Assembly: GCF_020923435.1 (NCBI RefSeq)
Contig: NZ_CP087263.1
Coordinates: forward strand, 1,073,970-1,137,969
Reading direction: 5' to 3'
From: Brevibacillus humidisoli
GTDB taxonomy: Bacteria; Bacillota; Bacilli; Brevibacillales; Brevibacillaceae
Length of the DNA: 64,000 nt
A model generated the notes under the pieces. It searched no databases and was not told where the DNA came from. It saw only the letters and a program-made list of their open reading frames with translations. Below, piece after piece: positions 15,580 through 17,562 of the stretch. The stretch's first letter is position 1. The number at the start of each line of letters is the position of its first letter. A program made the position numbers and the translations under genes.

Positions 15580-16011
<432 letters not shown>

Positions 16012-16076
16012 AGAATATCCTACACCAATGTTCTTTCTCCACTGTTAAAAGGCCACCTTCTAAACTAGCATCCACC

Positions 16077-16378
16077 GACCGACACGGTCAGTTTTGCGTG
16101 TAGACAAAACCTCGGTACAGGCGGAGAGTAGCTCTTTTGCGGAAGGAGCGACTCTTGCCAACCAGCTCAGCGGAGCCAGTCCGAAGCGGGGGCTTTCGGG
16201 CGCAACCCTGAGGTACTTCGTAGCGATGACCACTTTTTGCGACCGCCCGCTTCGGACTGGCGCAGCGGACAGTCCCACTTCCTCGCTGGTTGGCAACGAA
16301 GCGACTGGAGGAAAAGAGCTACTCTCCCCCGCCCCGCCCCTTTGTCTACAGGCTGCACTGACCGACACGGTCAGTTTT
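16077..16378. repeat. ~250-bp imperfect hairpin element flanked by 19-bp direct repeats
   Basis: Identical 19-bp sequences (GACCGACACGGTCAGTTTT) occur at 16077-16095 and 16360-16378. Between them are nested inverted-repeat arms: 16100-16108 pairs with 16341-16349 (9 bp), 16123-16138 with 16312-16327 (16 bp, perfect), 16155-16166 with 16285-16296 (12 bp) and 16176-16190 with 16246-16260 (15 bp, perfect). The central loop is 16191-16245. There is no credible coding frame inside. The layout fits a miniature inverted-repeat element with a target-site duplication, or a long structured RNA between two terminator-like hairpins. The family is not recognised. Confidence 0.75.
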
Positions 16379-16489: not shown

Positions 16490-16570
16490 TTTCGACATGT
16501 TCGGTTCTACAAAAAAAGTGAAAAAAGCTGTCAAGAAGCGACAGACTTTACATACACATTAAGATATACT
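16490..16570 (+). promoter_or_regulatory. Putative Spo0A-controlled promoter of spoIIGA-sigE
   Basis: Upstream of spoIIGA there is TTTCGACAT (16490-16498), an 8/9 match to the reverse 0A box, and a weaker facing pair of half-sites (TGTCAAG at 16530 and GCGACA at 16538-16543). A good -10 hexamer TATACT lies at 16565-16570 without a normal -35 at 17 bp. In B. subtilis the spoIIG promoter is activated by Spo0A~P and has an abnormally spaced -35, so this arrangement fits; the assignment is inference. Confidence 0.45.
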
Positions 16571-16599: not shown

Positions 16600-17562
16600 A
16601 TGGTGGTTTACCTTGATATCATCATACTCCTCAACTTTGCAATTGATACCTTGTTGCTGTGGTTTACAGCTTACTTTCGCAAGGCAAGAATCGTCTGGTG
16701 GAGGCTGCTGGCAGCAGCAGCATTTGGGTCTACGTATATCGCTTTCTTTTTTCTGCCGTCATTTGCCGGTATGTATCAGTGGATGGTCAAGCTGCTCTTT
16801 TCTGTCCTGATGCTGTTGATCGCCTTTGGGTTTCCTCGGCTGCTTGCATTTGCCCACCATCTCTGTGTGTTTTACTTTGTGGCATTTGTATTTGGCGGTG
16901 GCGTATTTGGCTTGAACTACTTGTTGGCTTCACAAAGTGAAGTGATGAATGGGATTCTCGTGACCCACAATGATGGATTTGGGGTAGGTTCCAAGCCGAC
17001 GCTTCTGGTGCTGGCAGCCGGCTTTGCTCTGGTCTACATACTCAGCCGCAATAGCTATCGAGCGATTCAAGGTCCCCGACAGATCGAATCGTTTCTGGTA
17101 GAAGTATGCGTGAAGGTAAACGGTGAGAGTGTGATCTGCCGTGGTTTAGTCGATACCGGCAACCAACTGCAGGAGCCGATTACCCGTATACCGGTGATGA
17201 TTATGGAGAGCAAGTTGTTGGCTCATCTATTGCCTGCGGGGCTATCCGACCGCTTGGCTCAGTTGAATGGTATGCTGGACGGATTAGACGATCTGTTTGA
17301 TTCCATGCGGGATGAGTGGCAAGCCCGTTTGCGGGTGATTCCCTACCGCAGTGTCTCACGAGGAATGGATTTTCTCTTAGCGGTGAAACCGGATGTCGTG
17401 GTTATCGTCCAGCAGGGAGAGCGGTTTGAGTGCCGACGTGTTCTGCTGGGTTTAAATCCACACCCATTGTCAGCGGACCAGACCTATCAGGCGATTGTCC
17501 ATCCCGCCTTGGTGCAGCAGGATCCGGAAGGGACTGCCAAATCTATCAAACAGGAGGGTTAG
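16600..17562 (+). CDS. spoIIGA: Sigma-E processing peptidase SpoIIGA
   Basis: Membrane-embedded aspartic protease that cleaves pro-sigma-E in the mother cell after a signal from the forespore. The 320 residues contain five N-terminal hydrophobic segments (to about residue 150) and a cytoplasmic protease domain. The catalytic aspartate is Asp185 in the motif DTG (185-187), within GLVDTGNQLQEP. GGGGGTGA precedes the ATG. It lies immediately before its substrate gene sigE, the conserved arrangement. Confidence 0.95.
   Translation: MVVYLDIIILLNFAIDTLLLWFTAYFRKARIVWWRLLAAAAFGSTYIAFFFLPSFAGMYQWMVKLLFSVLMLLIAFGFPRLLAFAHHLCVFYFVAFVFGGGVFGLNYLLASQSEVMNGILVTHNDGFGVGSKPTLLVLAAGFALVYILSRNSYRAIQGPRQIESFLVEVCVKVNGESVICRGLVDTGNQLQEPITRIPVMIMESKLLAHLLPAGLSDRLAQLNGMLDGLDDLFDSMRDEWQARLRVIPYRSVSRGMDFLLAVKPDVVVIVQQGERFECRRVLLGLNPHPLSADQTYQAIVHPALVQQDPEGTAKSIKQEG

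Follow-up and report, generated by a model that had tools for sequence, protein, structure and literature searches.

A non-autonomous IS1182-type element with a structured core, flanked by a duplicated terminator hairpin in Brevibacillus humidisoli

A mobile element of 262 bp lies between a VOC gene and spoIIGA in Brevibacillus humidisoli, at positions 16094-16355 (plus strand) of the window, by which we mean the whole 64,000-nucleotide stretch of DNA that was analysed. We give a probability of about 0.9 to the reading that it is a non-autonomous, MITE-type member of the IS1182 family with a structured core, mobilised by the transposase of one of two full-length insertion sequences (ISA or ISB) into an intrinsic-terminator hairpin, with duplication of the whole hairpin. 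As is characteristic of MITEs, it is short and multicopy, has no transposase gene (the window's list of open reading frames holds none inside it), shares its terminal repeats with an autonomous insertion sequence and stands within a target-site duplication. A sequence-only reading of the region had already put forward a mobile element as one of two options, and copies elsewhere, duplications specific to each site and a sister locus that lacks the element bear this out.

The element and its host locus

The limits of the element are those at which the matches of its two closest other copies stop exactly (query bases 1-262). Its left terminal repeat, TTGCGTGTAGACAAAA, occupies 16094-16109 and its right terminal repeat, CTTTGTCTACAGGCTG, occupies 16340-16355, both on the plus strand, with inverted arms of 10 bp (TGTAGACAAA/TTTGTCTACA) at 16099-16108 and 16341-16350. 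A point against the MITE reading is that the left end (TTGCG) deviates from the CAG consensus. Structurally, the body is built of nested inverted arms: stem P0, of 19 bp at 95% (5' arm 16120-16138, plus strand; 3' arm 16312-16330), stem P1, of 12 bp exact (16155-16166/16285-16296), and arms of 24 bp at 88%, including a 16-bp exact part (16167-16190/16246-16269), which enclose a loop of 55 nt (16191-16245). The hairpin fold has a minimum free energy (MFE) of -161.5 kcal/mol, whereas shuffled sequences average -113.2 (z = -9.0), and chance is excluded because none of 100 shuffles reaches it; the minus strand gives z = -9.1 in the shuffle test.

The sequence-only reading had described the nested arms, the 55-base loop and the 19-bp direct repeats, all of which are present, but its span for the hairpin element, 16077-16378, was too wide. 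The direct repeats belong to the target and not to the element; 19 bp of them are indeed identical, but in full length they span 23 bp (16073-16095 and 16356-16378) and differ at one position. Phage and plasmid records searched with the element gave no match, and a search of the Brevibacillus literature for an earlier description, with most subscription papers outside its reach, yielded nothing relevant.

The insertion target is the terminator of a VOC/glyoxalase-superfamily gene (15634..16011, plus strand; PF00903, E=5.6e-11; start of the open reading frame picked by eye). That terminator hairpin is now found as a left copy at 16073..16093 and a right copy at 16356..16376, both on the plus strand, and the right copy runs on into the T-run. 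The duplication at this site is 21 bp with one mismatch, and it is exact at several other copies. Both repeats had been credited with a terminator-like stem, and a terminator scan does call both; the right copy scores better, its stem being 8 bp and its T-run long, but in the left one the single base difference cuts the stem to only 5 pairs, and the tail is weak. The proposal that the element entered the VOC terminator, making the target itself a terminator hairpin, was right, and describes a rule for the transposon group. Since a hairpin and T-run persist on the far side, the VOC gene is probably still terminated, and the insertion probably came at little cost.

The downstream neighbour is spoIIGA (16600..17562, plus strand; Brevibacillus relatives at 58-78% identity). 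The closeness to this gene, which had been pointed out earlier, looks incidental because copies lie at many unrelated hairpins, and there is no evidence for any effect of the element on spoIIGA. Just upstream of this gene, the terminator scan also gives a terminator-like minus-strand site (window 16528-16544). In a sister species, represented by a Brevibacillus metagenome assembly with a SpoIIGA 78% identical to that of the window, the order is VOC gene, one hairpin and spoIIGA. The empty site that the sequence-only reading had suggested looking for is found in part: the element is absent and a single hairpin stands in its place, but since this hairpin has another sequence, the comparison indicates absence of the element rather than the exact pre-insertion sequence.

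Copies and candidate partner transposons

Other genomic copies, also named as a check, were found. A sequence search gave 46 matching places for the element across its own 4.9-Mb genome, with 13 substantial copies, including the one in the window, plus many partial matches. The 12 others are 84-98% identical to it: the two closest, at 98% and 97% identity, cover element bases 1-262 exactly, and ten further ones are at 84 to 91%. Internal shortening is seen in several other copies. Each intact copy sits between its own pair of hairpins, whose sequence differs from site to site, whereas at several old copies (e.g., L006, L007, L009, L012, L032 and L033) a hairpin, or the pair, is decayed or mismatched, which counts against the main reading. 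In another Brevibacillaceae genome, a copy upstream of a 16S rRNA gene (L167, core at 1439-1580) has a hairpin duplication of its own.

The genome of the window carries two groups of full-length insertion sequences: ISA, of 1537 bp, in 5 copies, and ISB, of 1545 bp, in 9 copies with 98-100% protein identity. Both have intact transposases, ends in common with the element and flanks with hairpin duplications alike. Their transposases contain DUF772 and DDE domains and, at 478.5 and 491.7 bits, lie well above the cut-off of 270 for NCBI's IS1182 equivalog NF033551, which places them in the IS1182 family. The last 16 bp of the element are those of ISB, and near the left end of the element 13 bp correspond, in inverted form, to the right end of ISA; only about 16 bp are common at each end, and no internal sequence is shared. 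From ends and flanks, we infer that ISA or ISB mobilises the element in trans. The earlier impression that no known family applied thus holds for the core, which Rfam does not match, but not for the ends, which are of the IS1182 family. A third IS1182-family insertion sequence in this genome (L036-L040; 557-aa transposase, ends GAGGGTGTCCC) has no evident hairpin duplication in the flanks inspected, by eye only.

The structured core

Within the element lies a conserved structured core at 16154..16297 on the plus strand (model R1, 155.8 bits). It consists of P1, P2 (16175-16190/16246-16261), P3 (16197-16205/16237-16245) and a conserved 3' internal loop (16262-16284), and its covariance model was built on the inner 142 positions. 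Searches with this model find it in 35 of the 39 Brevibacillaceae genomes, a single one of which can hold as many as 66 copies, and 17 Bacilli genomes from other families have it as well. No core, taken from 16 loci in several genera, matches any Rfam 15 covariance model at E up to 0.1. The core may be a new structured family, a candidate present in tens of copies in many genomes. Going further, one can tentatively propose, at somewhat less than even odds, that it represents a hitherto undescribed class of repeats in Bacilli, structured and dispersing, which acts as RNA or single-stranded DNA, reaches up to 66 copies per genome as single, inverted-pair or tandem units, and is packaged in this genus between IS1182-type ends and so delivered into terminators.

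Among known repeats, the core resembles REP/BIME sequences in being a high-copy, palindromic, intergenic repeat, sometimes in alternating orientation, but it measures about 140-200 nt, against 20-40 bp for REPs (PMC3733652). REPs are also marked by a conserved tetranucleotide foot and a RAYT transposase; the core has other motifs. Bacterial MITEs such as RUP, BOX and SPRITE (reviewed in PMC10969869) are likewise short, non-coding and multicopy, with terminal inverted repeats and possibly structured transcripts. Unlike them, the present element has a whole terminator hairpin as its target duplication, and its body covaries across several Bacilli families.

That the core drives the spread, as an independently mobile structured repeat which gained IS1182 ends in this lineage, is an unlikely but serious alternative. 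It would account for the cores that occur in tens of copies in lineages G018, f12 and f30 (the last two being families), where neither IS1182 ends nor hairpin duplications turned up around the cores of G018 and the other-family genomes, and it agrees with their occurrence in inverted pairs and tandem arrays. Against it, the limits of intact copies in the element's own genome and in G002 coincide exactly with IS1182-type ends that hairpin duplications flank, and no protein partner of the core turned up in an unsystematic look. Divergent inverted pairs are frequent and lie a few hundred nucleotides apart (L166, L181, L187, L198, L211, L213, L225, L258 and L259), weaker partners of this kind occur in the element's own genome at C1:3228699/3229019 and 2808533/2808890, and three to five cores form tandem arrays in the same orientation at L216 (spacing about 295), L208 and L251.

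Covariation had been suggested as a check, and the core does covary. In an alignment of 90 matches, compensatory changes are seen in 35 of 36 pairs, and the covariation score is 0.683, compared with 0.174 for shuffled alignments and less than 0.1 for slid partners, in a model-fitted alignment that favours the modelled structure. Additionally, distant copies such as L168 fold by themselves into the same architecture with different stem sequences. Compensatory change alone does not prove an RNA, because arm-to-arm correction in a DNA palindrome can also give it. At paired positions, G-U exceeds A-C by 79 to 16, and by 10 to 3 in an alignment that was not model-fitted. The strand that the G-U pairs suggest is not supported by per-strand MFE, as the opposite, minus strand folds better by 2.5 kcal/mol on average. 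Gene orientation around the cores is noisy.

These data bear on the second option of the sequence-only reading, a structured RNA enclosed by two terminators. In its full form, an immobile host RNA gene (a regulatory RNA or 3' UTR element) would lie between terminators that arose by local duplication, and the strong covariation and the G-U excess speak for such an RNA. The better-folding minus strand does not, and as an account of the whole feature the idea is contradicted by copies 97-98% identical at unrelated sites, each between a pair of hairpins specific to it, and by the sister species without the element at the locus. We regard a host RNA gene as very improbable; the idea survives for the core only, which covaries as a structured family, whereas the feature that contains it is mobile.

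The hairpin as target

The target rule can be followed well beyond one genome. Fourteen relatives in other Bacilli genomes (45-75% amino acid identity) have an exact duplication of a whole hairpin abutting the ends CAG..TG.AGACAAA; these 14 are the loci with a detectable duplication, and about as many are without one, through truncation, decay or a position at a contig end. A hairpin duplication is likewise seen at six of seven plasmid-borne IS1182 elements, among them ISEfa7 and ISBspe1, which are annotated, and one from Rhizobium; the seventh, from S. simulans (L285), is flanked by two different hairpins. IS1182 elements that show the duplication come from Lactococcus, Sutcliffiella, E. faecium and Rhizobium.

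Element sets for the following statistics were limited to elements with intact duplications, decayed copies existing beside them. Perfect hairpins make up 27 of 28 duplications from intact elements of many genomes, picked without regard to palindromy. This count uses a strict criterion, under which random segments pass at a rate of 3.2% and shuffled duplications at 2.6%; a looser one is passed by 17.5% of random segments. Over 36 elements, which include ISEfa7, ISBspe1 and one Rhizobium element, the duplication is 18-47 bp long and tracks stem length (r = 0.94). It is placed symmetrically on the hairpin, with a mean asymmetry of its ends near 0 nt; the boundary is therefore set by the feet of the hairpin. 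A T-run of at least 4 stands beside the hairpin at 29 of 39 elements, against 6% of random places, and most targets therefore look like intrinsic terminators. By these sequence comparisons, the hairpin-duplicating branch of IS1182 appears to cut at the feet of a hairpin and to duplicate it.

Such a rule suggests the following course. The transposase of a full-length ISA or ISB elsewhere in the genome would recognise the common ends, and the element would be inserted at an intrinsic-terminator hairpin. Two strand transfers would occur at the two 5' feet of this hairpin, or of a cruciform that the transposase may recognise, instead of at a fixed stagger, and gap repair would then leave the entire stem-loop on both sides of the element. 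The body of the element is itself a member of a structured repeat family (P0-P3) that is found across the Brevibacillaceae.

IS1272 and TnSha1, also of the IS1182 family, insert into hairpins, often terminators, independently of sequence, with the hairpin deleted or replaced (PMC5678879, PMC4923244). Duplication of the whole stem-loop is a hypothetical pathway (b) of the model in PMC5678879, if the 3' ends of the element join at the 5' feet, and according to a 2025 paper (PMC12056078), IS1182-type transposases can work both with and without a duplication, and target structure may be what they recognise. No paper stating whole-hairpin duplication as a rule was found, in a search that left most subscription papers outside. 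ISEfa7 and ISBspe1 (transposase about 450-500 aa) are closest to the present system in family, end type and exact whole-hairpin duplication, but they encode a transposase and are not seen with the structured core, whereas the 262-bp element encodes none. IS1272 and TnSha1 (transposase about 550 aa) share hairpin or terminator insertion with it, but leave no duplication. A stem-loop replacement of their kind, with the flanking hairpins as parts of the element, would fit the common family and hairpin preference, but can be dismissed, as the hairpins vary by site around a constant element, both copies at a site are alike, and a whole hairpin is duplicated here where, in published IS1272/TnSha1 insertions, it is lost partly or entirely. 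REP-targeting insertion sequences (ISPsy8, ISPpu9 and ISRm22) are similar in that some insertion sequences insert at palindromes, yet they make duplications of 0-6 bp at a fixed place (PMC1525189), as opposed to whole hairpins of any sequence.

Insertion of a non-autonomous IS1182-type element with whole-hairpin duplication is one of many natural examples, mostly from Firmicutes plus one from Rhizobium, of a target rule only listed as possible in a published model. Under this rule, the target duplication of a DDE transposase would be exactly one hairpin and not a fixed stagger, and structure-guided target choice becomes directly testable. The rule also offers a possible reason why insertions of this kind may do almost no harm, the terminator being kept.

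Two pairs of insertion sequences in the B. humidisoli genome, L034/L035 (C1:3.275-3.278 Mb) and L044/L045 (2.311-2.317 Mb), have outer hairpins that appear, by eye, to match, an arrangement resembling composite transposons. The outer hairpins of L034/L035 differ by an inverted loop (gattc / gaatc).
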